Below, piece after piece: positions 47,361-64,000 of a stretch of DNA of 64,000 nt. This DNA comes from Gloeomargarita sp. SRBZ-1_bins_9 (GTDB lineage: Bacteria > Cyanobacteriota > Cyanobacteriia > Gloeomargaritales > Gloeomargaritaceae), in contig JAUQVX010000011.1 of NCBI GenBank assembly GCA_039794565.1, positions 1 to 64,000 on the forward strand, in the 5' to 3' direction. The position numbers were made by a program, and so were the translations under genes. Each line of letters opens with the position of its first letter. The first letter of the stretch is position 1. A model generated the notes under the pieces. The model saw only the letters and a list, made by a program, of their open reading frames with translations, was not told where the DNA came from and made no database searches.

Positions 47361-48596
47361 TTAACCTTTTAACAGGCTGGTATGAACTGGGGGTTTCAAC
47401 CCGGTCCAAGCCAGTCCCATGCCCCCCATAGCCAACCCTGCCATGACCCCAAAAACAGCTTGATACGACCCTAACCAATCCCGAATTTGACCGGTCAGCA
47501 ATGTACCTAAAAGCGCCCCTGCACCGTAGGCCGTAAACACCCAACCGTAGTTTTGGGCATAGCGGTCGGGGTGGAAAAAACGCAGAGTAACCGTGGGAGC
47601 CATGGCCAGCCACCCCCCCAAACAGAACCAAAATAGGCTAAACGCCAGCAGGTAATGGCCTACTTGGCCTGCCCGCGCCGAACCCATTACCAGCGCAGCG
47701 ACAAACATTAGGGCATAGGAAAACATCGCTACGTAGCGGGGAGGAAACCGGTCGCTCAACCAACCAAACAGGGGACGACTGACCCCATTGCCCACAGCAA
47801 ACCAAGCGACACTGGCTGCTGCCAGGTCAGCAGTGATGCCAATGACCTCCTGACCGACGGGACTAGCAATCCCAATCGCGCTCAGCCCAATGAAAGTTCC
47901 TAGGGCATAGCACAGCCATAACCCGTAGAAGGAGCGGCTGCGCCACAGAGTCACCGGATAGACCCCATTTGTTTGCATCCCAGACGAGTCCGTTGGGGGG
48001 CGCCAATCCGGCGGCGGCAACCGCATCCATCCCGCCAGGGCCAGGATCACCGTCATCAACAGCAACCCCATCAGCCGCAGCGCCACCCGCACCCCGTAGG
48101 TTTGAATCCACAAGTTGGCCAGGGGCGCCGTGACCAAGGGAGACAATCCAAACCCCACCACTGTTAGCCCCACAGCCAGCCCCTTGCGGTCAGGAAACCA
48201 GCGGGCCGCTACCAGCAGTGGGACACCATACGTCATACCAATCCCTGATCCCCCCAGCACCCCATACCCCACCACCAGTAAAGGCAACCCCTTTGCTAGA
48301 CTGGCCAAGAGATAACCCAGCCCCACCAGCAGTCCTCCCATCACCGTCACCCGACGTGTGCCCAGGTGTGGCAAACCAAAGCCGGCAATCGGCATCAGCA
48401 AGGCATAAAACAGCAATGCCAGGGTATAGGGAAGTAGGCTGGCGGTAGCGCTTAAGCCCAGGTGTTCTTCCAGGGGCAGGCGAAAAATGCTCCAGGAGTA
48501 AACCGTCCCCAGGCACAGCAAAATGGCCATGCCTAAAGGCAGCAGGAACCAACGTCCCCGCCGCGCCGGTTGCCCAAATAGGGTTAGAGGAGTCAT
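47361..48596 (-). CDS. MFS transporter, oxalate:formate antiporter (OFA) family
   Basis: 411 residues, about 12 hydrophobic segments. N-terminal LLPLGMAILLCLGTVYSWSIFRLPL, SGIGMTYGVPLLVAARWFPDRKGLAVGL, and late NYGWVFTAYGAGALLGTLL fit the OFA branch of the major facilitator superfamily, whose members exchange small organic anions. The start lies 12 bp after the nifZ stop on the same strand, so it is probably the last gene of the asr1405-nifV-nifZ operon. Substrate unknown: organic acids tied to homocitrate or oxalate are only an inference from context. Confidence 0.8.
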   Translation of the reverse strand: MTPLTLFGQPARRGRWFLLPLGMAILLCLGTVYSWSIFRLPLEEHLGLSATASLLPYTLALLFYALLMPIAGFGLPHLGTRRVTVMGGLLVGLGYLLASLAKGLPLLVVGYGVLGGSGIGMTYGVPLLVAARWFPDRKGLAVGLTVVGFGLSPLVTAPLANLWIQTYGVRVALRLMGLLLMTVILALAGWMRLPPPDWRPPTDSSGMQTNGVYPVTLWRSRSFYGLWLCYALGTFIGLSAIGIASPVGQEVIGITADLAAASVAWFAVGNGVSRPLFGWLSDRFPPRYVAMFSYALMFVAALVMGSARAGQVGHYLLAFSLFWFCLGGWLAMAPTVTLRFFHPDRYAQNYGWVFTAYGAGALLGTLLTGQIRDWLGSYQAVFGVMAGLAMGGMGLAWTGLKPPVHTSLLKG

Positions 48597-48608: not shown

Positions 48609-48860
48609 TTACTCGATGTCCGCCGGTGGCTCCAAGCTTTCCAGTTCTGTCCCCCGGCACCCCACCACTATACCCAACGCCAAAAAATGCACGCTGTAGA
48701 TATAGAACATCTGCAGAAACGTGCCGATGCCCACCACGTAGCCCACCTCCCCCTTGCCGGCCAAAACCTCCCTCGGCCCCCGTCCGATGAACGTACCGTC
48801 GTTGCGAATCGTCCGGGTGAGCCGCACCTTTTCCCCCAGGGCAAATTGGGGAGGACCCAT
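48609..48860 (-). CDS. nifZ: Nitrogen fixation protein NifZ
   Basis: 83 residues. FALGEKVRLTRTIRNDGTFIG, GKGEVGYVVGIGTFLQMFYIYSVHFLALGIVVGCRGTELE (given in pieces: GEVGYVVGIGTFLQ, YSVHFL, VVGCRGTEL) matches NifZ, which assists formation of the second P-cluster in the NifDK protein. I start at ATG 48860, whose A is shared with the nifV stop (TGATG); a start at 48884 inside nifV is possible. nifT, which often follows nifZ, is absent: an MFS gene follows instead. Confidence 0.93.
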   Translation of the reverse strand: MGPPQFALGEKVRLTRTIRNDGTFIGRGPREVLAGKGEVGYVVGIGTFLQMFYIYSVHFLALGIVVGCRGTELESLEPPADIE

Positions 48861-50008
48861 CAACTCGCTTGGAGTTCCGTCCATGACGCTTGGACCCTCT
48901 GGGCGATTGTTCTCAATTCCGACAGGGGCAACCCCCCTTTGTGACGAGTAGCCCGTCGGCGCACAAGGGCCAAAATTGCCTGAGCTTGGGCGGGCGTGAC
49001 CTGCACCCCCATCTGCTGTAAAACGTGAGTGATGGCGTGGGTACCCGAATGTTTGCCAATCACCAGTTGCCGCTGTCGTCCCACCCGCTCCGGGGGATAG
49101 GGTTCATAGGTCAAGGGGTCAGTCAGTACGCCGTGGGCATGGATACCCGCCTCATGGGCAAAGGTGTTGATGCCAACAACCGCCTTGCACAAGGGTGGAC
49201 GACAATTAGCCGCCTGGGCCACCCGTTGGGACAGTTCCCAGAAACGGCTGGTGTCTATGGGCAACCGACAGCCATAAATCTCCTGCAAGGCCAGCACCAC
49301 CTCCTCCAAGGCCGCATTCCCAGCCCGTTCCCCTAAACCGTTGACCGTCGTGTTCACCGCACGGGCGCCGGCGCGAATTCCCGCCAGGGCGTTGGCCGTG
49401 GCCATACCGAAATCGTCGTGGGTGTGCATCTCCACCGGAATCGCCAGCGCCTCGGTCAAATGCCGTACCTGATCATAGGTTGTAAAAGGGTCAAGACAGC
49501 CGACTGTATCGCAAAACCGGAACCGTTCCGCCCCCCACGCCTGGGCTGCCGTGGCCACCTCCAATAGAAACCTAGGGTCAGCGCGGGAACTATCCTCTCC
49601 CCCGACGGCCACAAATAACCCCTGGTCCTTGGCGAATTGGATACAGGCCCGTAACTGCTGGAGCATCGCCTGCCGATCGCCTTGGAACTTCACCCCGATT
49701 TGCACCTCTGACACCGGCACCGAGATATGCACCCGGCGTAGCCCACAGGCCAGAGAAGCCCGCAGGTCCTCCAGGCGGCAACGATTCCAGCCAATCAACT
49801 GGGCCTTGAGACCCGCCCGAACGATGCGCCGGATGGCTTTTGCTTCCTCCCCCCCCATGGCCGGGATACCCACTTCCAATTCCGGAATGCCGATGGCGTC
49901 CAGCAAGCGGGCAATGGCCAGTTTTTCCTCAGGGGTAAACGCTACGCCTGCCGCCTGTTCCCCATCCCGCAGGGTTGTATCGTTGATCCAAACCATCTCC
50001 AGCATCAT
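48860..50008 (-). CDS. nifV: Homocitrate synthase NifV
   Basis: 382 residues. Condenses acetyl-CoA and 2-oxoglutarate to (R)-homocitrate, the organic ligand of FeMo-cofactor. DRE-TIM motif INDTTLRDGEQ at the N-terminus, VHISVPVSEVQIGVKF, FRFCDTVGC, metal ligands in EMHTHDDFGMATANALAG, NTTVNGLGERAGNAALEEV, and the C-terminal INTFAHEAGIHAHGV. No LeuA-type regulatory domain is present. I chose ATG 50008 with AGAGG just upstream; ATG at 49996 or 50041 are alternatives. Reads toward nifZ. Confidence 0.95.
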   Translation of the reverse strand: MMLEMVWINDTTLRDGEQAAGVAFTPEEKLAIARLLDAIGIPELEVGIPAMGGEEAKAIRRIVRAGLKAQLIGWNRCRLEDLRASLACGLRRVHISVPVSEVQIGVKFQGDRQAMLQQLRACIQFAKDQGLFVAVGGEDSSRADPRFLLEVATAAQAWGAERFRFCDTVGCLDPFTTYDQVRHLTEALAIPVEMHTHDDFGMATANALAGIRAGARAVNTTVNGLGERAGNAALEEVVLALQEIYGCRLPIDTSRFWELSQRVAQAANCRPPLCKAVVGINTFAHEAGIHAHGVLTDPLTYEPYPPERVGRQRQLVIGKHSGTHAITHVLQQMGVQVTPAQAQAILALVRRRATRHKGGLPLSELRTIAQRVQASWTELQAS

Positions 50009-50087
50009 GGCCTCTAACCAAACAGGAATGGCCTGAACCACCTGGCGGTATAAAGACGAATAAACACCACAAACCTGATCCCATCCA

Positions 50088-50339
50088 TTACCCGCCGGGT
50101 ACCGCTAAACTCTGCCAACAACGCTCTAACCAATCCACCTGCTGCTGGCGGGAGCTATTAAACCGGAACAGGATCATGGCCACCAGAATCGCCTGATGGC
50201 AATTTTTGATTTCTACGGCCAGGGAACCATCTGCCAAACATTCACAAGCAATTGCCAATTCCTGGAGACGCGCGCGGATATTCCACCGCTCTCCCACCGG
50301 TAAGGTTTCGATATGGTCTGTCAAAATAGCCTCCCACAT
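50088..50339 (-). CDS. Small Asr1405/Asl0597-type protein of the nif region
   Basis: 83 residues. Begins MWEAILTDHIETLPVGERWNI; internal CLADGSLAVEIKNCHQAILVAM and a C-terminal QQVDWLERCWQ are conserved elements of a small cyanobacterial family named after Anabaena Asr1405 and Asl0597. In Anabaena asr1405 lies beside nifV, as here. It may be a small nitrogenase-related accessory or regulator, but its function is unknown. 79 bp separate it from nifV; it reads away from the nif control region and could be the first gene of that operon. Confidence 0.7.
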   Translation of the reverse strand: MWEAILTDHIETLPVGERWNIRARLQELAIACECLADGSLAVEIKNCHQAILVAMILFRFNSSRQQQVDWLERCWQSLAVPGG

Positions 50340-50656
50340 AAGCCTGATCCCCTATTTCCTGTTCCTTTCGTTATAACAAGCCCCTGTCTTGCCCTCGCCT
50401 GGTACCCCTGGATCCCTGATTGTTTAGTTAGGTTGTACTCAGCCCCCACCGGCGACCTGTGTCCCCGTTAACGGCTGGCTTGACAGCTCTAGACCCATGC
50501 CGACTCCTGGAATGAACTGGAATTTTTCTCCCTAGGCCGTTCTATTTTTGTCCGGTGCAACAAGGATTTTGGGGGATTTGGAAATTCCTCTGCCTCTGTA
50601 CCCCCCCTTCTCTCGCCTGGCTAACCGACGATAGGCGAAATTTTACATCAATTTTG

Positions 50657-50701
50657 GTATTATATGTAACGGTCTAAATATGCTAGTGTTATGATTGATA
50701 C
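50657..50701. promoter_or_regulatory. Imperfect dyad of two GTAT-N6-TAAC elements (NtcA- or CnfR-like candidate)
   Basis: GTATTATATGTAAC (50657-50670, plus strand) and GTATCAATCATAAC (minus strand, reading 50701-50688) share GTAT-N6-TAAC and face each other across 17 bp. Each half differs from the NtcA consensus GTAN8TAC by one base in the right half. Symmetry suits a divergent control region. The distance to the nifB start (256 bp) is long for a class II NtcA site. Confidence 0.4.
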
Positions 50702-50899
50702 AAAAGATGCGATCGATGGGTGTCAATCGAGGCTGGAGTTGAGTAGATTTTAAGGCTGTTTCCCCTGTCGAAAGGGTTTCCTCTGGGGGGAAAAATACCC
50801 GATTCTTGATGTCCTTAAAAGTGCTATGTCCCATGGGTAGGGTTGTGGGGGATTGAGTACCTACCTAACCAATTTAATGAGGGGATTTGAGGGGTATCA

Positions 50900-50928
50900 T
50901 TGGGGCGCAAAAACGGCAGTGATATAAC
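50900..50928 (+). promoter_or_regulatory. nifB: Candidate nifB promoter
   Basis: TTGGGG and TATAAC separated by exactly 17 bases, with the -10 ending 29 bases upstream of the nifB ATG. The -10 is good; the -35 is weak, as expected for an activated promoter. Confidence 0.45.
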
Positions 50929-50957
50929 GATGGCATCGGATAGGGAGGCCTCAAAAA

Positions 50958-52385
50958 ATGGCAACCGATGCCCCAACCCACTGCCGTTGTACCCAAAACG
51001 GGCTGGCTGACGCTCTGGTGGAACGGGATGCCCGTTTACAGGCGCGGATTGCCCGGCACCCTTGCTACAGCGAGGAGGCCCATCACCACTACGCCCGCAT
51101 GCATGTGGCAGTGGCCCCCGCCTGTAACATCCAGTGCCACTACTGCAACCGCAAGTACGACTGTGCCAACGAAAGCCGACCAGGGGTGGTCAGCGAAGTC
51201 CTCACACCCGAAGAGGCCCTGCGCAAGGTGTTGGTGATCGCCGGGAAAATTCCCCAGTTGACGGTGGTGGGGATTGCCGGGCCAGGGGACCCTTTAGCCA
51301 ATCCCCAGCAGACCTTTCGCACCTTTGAACTCCTGGCTGAGCACGCGCCCGACCTGAAGCTGTGTCTTTCCACCAACGGTTTGAACTTGCCGGACTACAT
51401 TGACCGGATCAAGGCCCTGGGTATTGACCACGTGACGGTCACCATCAACGCCATTGACCCGGAGATTGCCGCACAAATCTACCCTTGGATTCGCTGGCAA
51501 CGCAAGCGTATCTACGGAAAAGAAGCAGTCAAAATCCTGCTAGAGCGGCAAAAAGAAGGGCTGGAGGCTTTACAAAAAGCTGATATTCTCTGCAAGGTGA
51601 ATTCGGTGATGATTCCGGGGATCAACGACCGGCACTTGCTGGAGGTCAATCAGTTTATCCGGGAGAAGGGGGCCTTTATTCACAACATCATGCCCCTGAT
51701 TTCCGACCCCGCCCACGGCACCTACTTTGGTCTCCACGGGCAACGGGGACCCACACCCCAGGAACTGAAAGCCCTACAGGACCAATGTGCAGGGAATATG
51801 CGCATCATGCGCCACTGTCGCCAGTGCCGGGCTGATGCCATTGGTCTGCTGGGGGAGGACCGCTCCCAGGAGTTTCCCAAGGCCAAAGTGATGACCATGC
51901 CGGTGACCTATGACCCTGAGCAACGCCGCCGGGTGCAGGAGCAGGTCGAACGCCAGCGCCGGGAATTGGCTGCCCTGAAAGCCCAACTGACGACTGCTCC
52001 CGCAGCCCCCACCCCCAAAATCTTGGTGGCCGTGGCCAGCAAAGGCGGCGGTTTGGTCAATCAACACTTTGGTCACGCCAAGGAATTTCTCATCTACGAG
52101 GTGGACGGGGCCAGTGTCAATTTCGTTGGCCATCGCAAGGTGGCCCAGTACTGCCAGGGGGGCTACGGCGAGGAGGCCACCATGGAACACATCCTGGCGG
52201 CGATTGCCGATTGTCAAGGGGTGCTCTGTAGCAAGATTGGCGCCTGCCCCCAAGAAAAACTGCGCCAGCGGGGCATCGAACCCTTTGAGGATTACGACGC
52301 GATTGACGTCGTGGCCCGCAAGTTCTACAGCAAATTTCTGCAAACCCAACCGGAGGTGTGCCATGCCTTACAAAACGCCGAATGA
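50958..52385 (+). CDS. nifB: FeMo-cofactor biosynthesis protein NifB
   Basis: 475 residues. Radical SAM enzyme making the 8Fe carbide precursor NifB-co. The radical SAM cysteines are at 56, 60 and 63 (CNIQCHYC), followed by NRKYDC, and [29 protein letters not shown] and [15 protein letters not shown] are NifB-specific, and the CRQC motif holds further cluster ligands. The C-terminal ~120 residues are the NifX-like domain ([21 protein letters not shown]). AGGGAGG lies upstream of the ATG. The end overlaps the fdxN-like gene by 23 bp. Confidence 0.98.
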
Positions 52386-52641
52386 GTACATGAGTTGGGG
52401 GGAGTGTTGCAGTCGTTGTCCCCAGGGGGCTATCCAGCGCATCGGGCACCACTACTGCTGGGACCCGCGCCGGTGCAACCGTTGCCGCGACCTGGGGGAA
52501 TACCGCTGCGGGGGTATTTTTGAGGACAACTCTCCTGACCAACTGGAGGACATCAGCAGCTACTGGCGCCAGTGGTTTGCTACCTACCAGCAACACCTGG
52601 CCCGTTTACAGACCCAGCAGGGGGTGGGAGGTCGCCCATGA
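52363..52641 (+). CDS. Degenerate FdxN-like ferredoxin in the nifB-nifS slot
   Basis: 92 residues, start ATG 52363 with GGAGG upstream, inside the end of nifB. The position is that of fdxN, a 2[4Fe-4S] ferredoxin that serves NifB. It keeps the tell-tale CPQGAI, Y-x-W-D, CNRC and NSP segments. It has seven cysteines (15, 16, 19, 32, 38, 41, 49), but the eight-ligand pattern is broken: positions 9 and 12 (Tyr, Trp) replace the first two ligands and Phe53-Glu54 replaces the last CP. A Gln/Tyr-rich helical tail of about 35 residues follows. The nifS start overlaps its stop (ATGA). Role uncertain. Confidence 0.75.
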
Positions 52642-63386: not shown

Positions 63387-63749
63387 ATGGAAATCACTCC
63401 TGCTGCTTGGCAGCAACTCCGCCAACTTCTGACCCGCTCTCACCGCCATCTGCGGCTCCACCTTGTCCCCAGTGGTTGTCAGGGCTATCGCTTCCGGCTC
63501 CAGCTTGTCGGGCAACCCAAACCCACTGACATCCCCCAATCCCACAACGGCCTCACACTGTACGTGGAGCACCAGAGTTTACCTTACCTCGCTGATGTCG
63601 TTTTGGACTACGTTGAAGGGTCAATCCAGGGCGGCTTTATCTTTCACCATCCCCACGCCTGTGCCTGCGGTTCATCCCGGGCCAGCTGTTTGTTCCACCG
63701 CCACCAGCACATCCGTTGCCTTGATCAGGGCGTAGGCCTCCTTTCCTAA
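63387..63749 (+). CDS. hesB: HesB/IscA-type protein of the nif cluster
   Basis: 120 residues. A-type Fe-S carrier. Ligand cysteines are in PSGCQGYRFRLQL and CACGSS (C-x-C near the C-terminus), and ADVVLDYVEGSIQGGFIFHHPHA (in part) is typical. After CACGSS, where most HesB/IscA proteins stop, about 22 more residues continue (SCLFHRHQHIRCLDQGVGLLS in part); these lie opposite the end of the molbindin gene (78-bp overlap). GGGGGAAACC SD region precedes ATG 63387. Confidence 0.88.
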   Translation: MEITPAAWQQLRQLLTRSHRHLRLHLVPSGCQGYRFRLQLVGQPKPTDIPQSHNGLTLYVEHQSLPYLADVVLDYVEGSIQGGFIFHHPHACACGSSRASCLFHRHQHIRCLDQGVGLLS

Positions 63750-63899
63750 AGTAAGACCCAACCGCTCACAGGAGGTTTTGGTAATCAGCGCCGTCACCTC
63801 GATACCCGGTGCTATCTCCAAAGTCACCTCAGCAACAACCATACCCGTCACAACATTTTTAACCTTGCCCTTCAGAACGTTCCGCGCACTGAGGTCCAT
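63672..63899 (-). CDS. mop: Molybdenum-binding protein, molbindin (Mop) type
   Basis: 75 residues from ATG 63899. Single Mop/TOBE domain: LSARNVLKGKVKNVVTGMVVAEVTL, VTALITKTSCERLGL, GKEAYALIKATDVLVAV. Molbindins form oligomers that store or buffer molybdate for FeMo-co. Reads against the nif operon, tail to tail with hesB (78-bp overlap), 58 bp from the divergent next gene. Placement inside the nif cluster supports a role in Mo supply to nitrogenase. Longer frame begins at 63959; ATG 63911 also possible. Confidence 0.9.
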   Translation of the reverse strand: MDLSARNVLKGKVKNVVTGMVVAEVTLEIAPGIEVTALITKTSCERLGLTLGKEAYALIKATDVLVAVEQTAGPG

Positions 63900-63957
63900 C
63901 CCATCCTCCATTTGACCCTGTCCGACCCTACCACCTACTCCCCAGGAGGGCGGTATC

Positions 63958-64000
63958 ATGGCTTACCTTACCAGCTACACCCGGGGCGGACACCCTTGGA
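63958..64000 (+). CDS. fdxB: Start of a nif-specific ferredoxin (FdxB-like), truncated by window end
   Basis: First 14 codons (MAYLTSYTRGGHPW) with AGGAGG before the ATG. The MxYLTxxTRGGxxW opening matches nif-linked ferredoxin III (FdxB), whose 4Fe-4S motifs would follow outside the window. Only the start is visible, so the call rests on this N-terminal pattern and the nif context. Confidence 0.6.
   Translation, partial: MAYLTSYTRGGHPW

Follow-up and report, generated by a model that had tools for sequence, protein, structure and literature searches.

The window analysed here, a 64,000-bp stretch of a contig from Gloeomargarita, an early-branching cyanobacterial lineage, contains a divergent nif locus in which a rightward nif cluster is faced by a leftward arm made up of asr1405, nifV, nifZ, an MFS transporter gene and a gene for a homologue of the regulator CnfR (Table 1). 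The gene names nifB and nifV, the latter standing for homocitrate synthase, follow the initial annotation. Seven Gloeomargarita genomes were searched (the genus set), of which six bear nifB and one, G004, does not. In all six nifB-bearing genomes asr1405, nifV, nifZ and the cnfR homologue are divergent from nifB, and an MFS relative at the corresponding place was found in none of the five genomes other than that of the window. No CnfR homologue was found in the nifB-less congener.

Table 1 Genes and predicted control elements of the asr1405-nifB locus (window coordinates)
Feature	Coordinates	Strand	Remarks
CnfR homologue, 516 aa	45742..47292	-	XRE helix-turn-helix present; 2x[4Fe-4S] ferredoxin motif absent
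MFS transporter	47361..48596	-	Between nifZ and the cnfR homologue; Pfam MFS_1, E 2e-32
nifZ	48609..48884	-	Pfam NifZ, E 6e-29; in 5/5 other genus genomes
nifV (presumed)	48860..50041	-	ORF; relatives at the same place in 5/5 other genus genomes
Asr1405/Asl0597 family gene	50088..50339	-	NCBIfam NF045598, E 1.3e-23; first divergent gene
Extended -10 of asr1405-nifV promoter, TGTTATAAC	50370..50378	-	Predicted start near 50363
Divergent-promoter box, TGAGTACA	50434..50441	-	TGAGTRCA-type
Left arm of dyad	50657..50670	-	GTATTATATGTAAC on +, GTTACATATAATAC on -; putative inverted, diverged distal-box copy; faces asr1405-nifV
Right arm of dyad with distal box, TGTTATGATTGATACA	50687..50702	+	Faces nifB; top window match to the non-genus matrix
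TGAGTRCA-type box, intermediate, TGAGTAGA	50740..50747	+	114 bp before the proximal copy
TGAGTRCA-type box, promoter-proximal, TGAGTACC	50854..50861	+	One mismatch; 66 bp before the extended -10
Extended -10 of nifB promoter, TGATATAAC	50920..50928	+	Predicted start near 50935
nifB (presumed)	50958..52385	+	First gene of the rightward nif cluster; relatives identified by sequence

Between asr1405 and nifB, the initial annotation had described a dyad of two opposed 14-bp GTAT-N6-TAAC arms, 17 bp apart, set in an A+T-rich island 256 bp from nifB, with each arm a single base away from the NtcA consensus GTAN8TAC. This description proved accurate throughout. The only GTATN6TAAC matches in the window are GTATTATATGTAAC (50657-50670, plus strand) and GTATCAATCATAAC (50688-50701, minus strand), the gap and the opposed orientation are as described, the distance to the nifB ATG at 50958 is correct, and the GC content falls to 26.7% at 50650-50709 against 48% for the whole intergenic region. 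The number of matches alone is weak evidence, since 9 of 100 shuffled versions of the window gave at least two (0.56 expected per window), as would suit a chance inverted repeat.

Comparison of the nifB-upstream regions of relatives, as the initial annotation had proposed, showed that the dyad is kept in all six nifB-bearing genus genomes, with one mismatch in the left arm of G002 (GTGAC). The centre-to-centre spacing of the arms is 30 bp in the genus and 31 bp in the window genome, and the distance from the dyad to the first matched nifB codon is 244-356 bp. It forms the best-conserved 45-column stretch of the aligned asr1405-nifB intergenic region, with 21 of 45 columns invariant compared with 96 of 782 elsewhere in the alignment (Fisher p = 6e-8). 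Because G002 and G003 are 97% identical in the dyad region (653/676 columns), the six genomes amount to about five independent lines. Across 388 cyanobacterial genomes, the exact palindromic pattern was found in five, all of this genus, at one place each and always in the asr1405-nifB region; the same pattern read backward, used as a control, occurred at four places in three genomes.

The dyad sits between two outward promoters, each composed of a TGAGTRCA box about 65 bp before an extended -10, one facing nifB and the other facing asr1405-nifV-nifZ-cnfR. With two mismatches allowed, the window holds only two such promoters, 50854->50920 (nifB) and 50441->50378 (asr1405). The earlier observation that the arms are opposed in the same way as the nifB and asr1405-nifV sides of the locus is thereby extended by an outward promoter of the same type on each side; the left promoter is complete in five of the six genus genomes, and G002 lacks the proximal left box TGAGTACA. 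Throughout the genus, TGAGTRCA lies 64-67 bp before the extended -10. A GAGTR box precedes the proximal box by 114-115 bp in all six genomes, about 179-181 bp before the extended -10, and a further one is present at 241-242 bp in three. TGNTATAAC occurs on the nifB side in all six genomes and on the divergent side in five; L003 has TGGTATAGT.

The starts predicted near 50935 and 50363 place the dyad outside both predicted transcripts, which head away from it. Neither a lack of conservation nor a position within predicted transcribed sequence, the two outcomes that the initial annotation had named as arguing against it, was thus encountered. Origin of the dyad by chance is contradicted by its conservation across the genus, and together with its uniqueness among the genomes searched and the direction of the transcripts this makes a chance inverted repeat, an RNA hairpin or a terminator highly improbable. 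An RNA hairpin was rejected as well on folding, which was no better than for shuffled sequences in the three of six genus sequences examined (z = -0.75, 0.46 and 0.26). That the dyad forms part of a conserved bidirectional nif control region we regard as secure.

The two-promoter layout was compared with 82 nifB loci outside the genus, comprising L007-L017 (11 loci) and L033-L104 without L089 (71 loci). The latter series was drawn from the best 80 matches, and L089 was omitted as too short; L018 and L019 were left out, as were L031 and L032, whose contigs are those of L003 and L004. The set is still somewhat redundant, L015 and L103 apparently being one contig. TGAGTRCA was found 65-69 bp before an extended -10, TGNTATAA, in 73 of the 82 loci, and many loci carry extra copies at 180-199 and 250-279 bp. 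The exact pattern TGAGTRCA-N54-61-TGNTATAAY occurred at 20 places in 17 of 59 genomes, compared with one place for the backward control. All nine matches in the genus fell in the asr1405-nifB region and coincided with its two promoters. Among 39 genomes searched for both, the promoter was present in 15 of 19 with nifB and in none of 20 without it; the nifB-bearing genomes in which the exact pattern was not found are G012, G013, G028 and G030. Matrix and TGAGTRCA scans showed that the upstream boxes are common to the genus region and other cyanobacterial nifB promoters, and TGAGTRCA and the distal box described below were both absent from the six non-cyanobacterial nifB upstream regions, which were kept separate as controls (L105-L110). 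Mirror-image promoters were considered as a genus-only trait, an idea that was rejected on finding reverse-facing TGAGTRCA/extended -10 combinations in 23 of the 82 non-genus loci. At L265 (G028), where nifB shows 47% identity, a divergent nif region without the distal box, TGAGTRCA or extended -10 pattern was observed.

Upstream of nifB in other cyanobacteria we recognized a block of the type TGATATGTTRGATACAGAATTG, referred to here as the distal box. A matrix built from non-genus loci only (63 of the 82 nifB upstream regions gave a site, 46 of them distinct) gave the right arm of the dyad the highest score of any position on either strand of the window (16-column core: 12.7, runner-up 4.2). 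Over the full 30 columns of this matrix the right arm still came first, narrowly (-7.4 vs -8.7), and it was the top match in each of the six genus nifB upstream regions. The left arm ranked 172nd in the window; in the upstream regions it came second in L003 and L006, third in L002, and outside the best four in L001, L004 and L005. We read the right arm as the putative ancestral box and the left arm as an inverted, more diverged copy of it. With up to one mismatch allowed, a left arm 27-33 bp before the box was found in none of the 73 non-genus loci with a distal box and in six of six genus genomes. By these comparisons, what is specific to the genus is the left arm at this spacing alone. The TGAGTRCA boxes are more constant than the distal box, of which 9 of the 82 non-genus loci have no good copy. 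L046 and L075 each carry two tandem distal boxes, spaced by 30-31 bp as are the arms of the dyad. Some Nostocales loci, for example L040 and L045, have a terminator-like palindrome within the nifB control region: downstream of the distal box stands CTGGAGTAG...CTACTCCAG with Ts after it.

The resemblance of the arms to GTAN8TAC raises the question of whether they are opposed degenerate NtcA sites bringing nitrogen control to both arms of the locus. The genus does have NtcA, split into two pieces in G006, and in Anabaena PCC 7120 an NtcA ChIP signal has been reported hundreds of bases upstream of nifB (PMC4284476). In the non-genus locus L009, moreover, GTATTATAAGGTAC starts 25 bp before the distal box. 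A TAN3T motif follows both arms at 23 bp towards asr1405 in the window genome; in L005 and L006 one follows the right arm at 22 bp. In all, three of the six genomes (L001, L005 and L006) have TAN3T 22-23 bp from an arm on the asr1405 side, none of the six has it on the nifB side, and L002, L003 and L004 have it on neither. As yardsticks for NtcA sites we used ntcA (seven genomes), the first and second amt genes and glnA, of which only glnA was a clean positive, with a canonical GTATCYCARGATAC (GTAN8TAC) and TAN3T 22-23 bp on in all seven genus genomes. The second amt gene has GTAN8TAC in four of four loci, with no TAN3T at 19-25 bp. For genus ntcA and for the first amt gene, no GTAN8TAC was found within 700 bp, and NtcA in this lineage therefore need not use only canonical sites.

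The arms resemble NtcA sites in length, and each has the GTA half. The TAC half, kept by genus glnA, is missing from all 12 arms, 11 of which end in AAC and one in GAC, and no conserved -10 lies at NtcA spacing. In addition, the distal-box consensus, which is not NtcA-like, accounts for the arms. From these comparisons the dyad is probably not an NtcA site, and we consider the opposed-NtcA reading improbable. Elsewhere in the window, a gene with a TOBE domain (63678-63962, minus strand) that we take to be mop-like is preceded by GTAAGCCATGATAC (63953-63966), an NtcA-type site of canonical form with TAN3T at +22. Its NtcA-type site is in line with a report that mop responds to nitrogen without CnfR (PMC5943405, as far as the available text goes).

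The CnfR homologue of the leftward arm was identified through CnfR-like proteins of other genomes; scans of the window and the nifB loci for ferredoxin-type regulator motifs found nothing, the homologue having been missed because the motif is lost. A search of the genus with Fer4_7 likewise led to small ferredoxins and a protein that is presumably GlcF-like instead of the CnfR homologue. The CnfR-like proteins used as yardsticks were named by their layout of ferredoxin and XRE helix-turn-helix, as described in PMC8510180, together with their nif linkage. Against the CnfR-like protein of G012 the window homologue shows 36% identity across 462 aa, and against 15 ferredoxin-type homologues from outside the genus it shows 33-41%. 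Pfam matches to HTH_31 and HTH_3 are present in the window protein, and helix-turn-helix matches in four of the five other genus homologues; the scanned G002 piece ends before this domain. The middle region and the XRE helix-turn-helix of the CnfR/PatB family are thus shared by the genus homologue, which in contrast to the family lacks the pair of CxxCxxCxxxC motifs (0/6 genus proteins versus 15/15 non-genus homologues, L188-L202). Fer4 domains were not detected in the genus homologues by Pfam at E up to 0.1. About four N-terminal cysteines are left; their arrangement is CxxCP plus CxxxxxC in four genus genomes and CP and others in the remaining two.

Nine more distant homologues (L203-L211) also lack CxxCxxCxxxC motifs (0/9), and in a quick tree with midpoint rooting the genus is placed beside one of them, L206 (G028), within the ferredoxin-type proteins. 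The CnfR-like frame of G028 was observed to stop before the helix-turn-helix match. In G002 (L260, 6816-9429), a genome that bears nifB, the cnfR homologue is split by a DDE transposase gene. This genome combines the split cnfR with the lost proximal left box and the left-arm mismatch, and this single case suggests joint decay of the regulator gene and its putative boxes.

Taken together, these comparisons favour CnfR, which the initial annotation had mentioned as an alternative, as a better candidate than NtcA. We propose, with a probability of about 0.6, that the dyad represents a doubled, lineage-specific version of the distal box within a bidirectional nif control region of the CnfR type, the binding of CnfR being predicted from sequence. 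When oxygen is low and nitrogen in short supply, the boxes would be bound by the CnfR homologue that the divergent arm encodes. The arms lie about three helical turns apart, which would put two units on one face of the DNA. The bound protein would then activate both promoters and in doing so raise its own expression. More tentatively, a CnfR with about four N-terminal cysteines might sense redox or oxygen in a way unlike that of ferredoxin-type CnfR.

A different division of labour, in which a factor other than CnfR, or a nucleoid protein, occupies the dyad and the distal box while CnfR acts only at TGAGTRCA, would be consistent with the lower constancy of the distal box and its greater distance from the promoter, and with the absence of an obvious common consensus between the distal box and TGAGTRCA. 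The published accounts of nif promoters, in their available text, give no binding data for the distal box. We nevertheless find this arrangement less likely: the two motifs co-occur upstream of most cyanobacterial nifB genes examined, neither is present in the 19.5 kb surrounding the divergent nifB of G028, whose CnfR-like frame stops short of the helix-turn-helix match, and, asr1405 left aside, no recognized second regulator is encoded in the conserved asr1405-nifV-nifZ-cnfR arm.

The proposed control by CnfR of two divergent transcripts from one intergenic region has a parallel in Leptolyngbya boryana, where CnfR activates divergent transcription from the nifB-nifP region (PMC5943405). Compared with that system as described in the available text, the left arm here consists of asr1405-nifV-nifZ-cnfR and includes cnfR itself, the distal box is doubled in inverted orientation, and the ferredoxin motif is missing from the activator homologue. 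Since cnfR of L. boryana is reported to be CnfR-independent, the proposed feedback loop would have no precedent there (PMC5943405). In the same organism, nifB is no longer expressed once CnfR is deprived of its iron-sulphur region or of its DNA-binding domain, and in Anabaena variabilis one region between nifZT2 and nifB2 serves both nif2 operons (PMC8510180). The nifB1 and nifB2 promoters of A. variabilis are described as containing the conserved sites CS1-CS3, the TGAGTATA motif and an extended -10 (PMC8510180, PMC4284476); by this description they resemble the present promoters in their extended -10 and TGAGTA-type motif, whereas a dyad is not mentioned in the available text of either paper. 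A search of open-licence literature by title and the start of the abstract gave no treatment of the Gloeomargarita cnfR/nif region among the matches listed, and the available parts of PMC5745016, PMC7699953 and PMC9600594 contain nothing decisive for the nif control region.

The double ferredoxin is thought to make CnfR answer to oxygen, and its absence from the genus homologue allows a more far-reaching scenario, which we put forward with some scepticism: the Gloeomargarita nif activator may have lost this module and been rewired, coming to lie in the divergent arm of the region that it targets, with positive feedback, and acquiring a new palindromic operator through an added inverted distal box. 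The position of the boxes relative to the start can also be set beside earlier work, Tsujimoto reportedly having placed a CnfR element about 76 bp upstream of the start in 2016; the proximal TGAGTRCA box would fit this position. Gloeomargarita offers a natural relative of CnfR that lacks the double ferredoxin motif, together with an altered upstream element and one genome whose gene is broken, and so a direct route to the role of the domain and to the DNA boxes that CnfR reads. In addition, the distal box, the fixed-step TGAGTRCA boxes and the extended -10 together provide a compact description of cyanobacterial nif promoters that could be useful for transferring nif clusters between hosts.

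Two further observations concern ferredoxin-like frames in the rightward cluster and beyond. At about 52380-52571 of the window (plus strand), between nifB and nifS, lies a small frame with an incomplete cysteine pattern that we assume to be FdxN-like; the same cysteine-pattern test revealed no such small frame in the other five genus genomes. Just past the window, at L116 (G000:C11:64147-64200), a ferredoxin reading frame that is presumably fdxB-like contains a TAG; other genomes of the genus have open nif-linked ferredoxin frames, 112-168 aa long.
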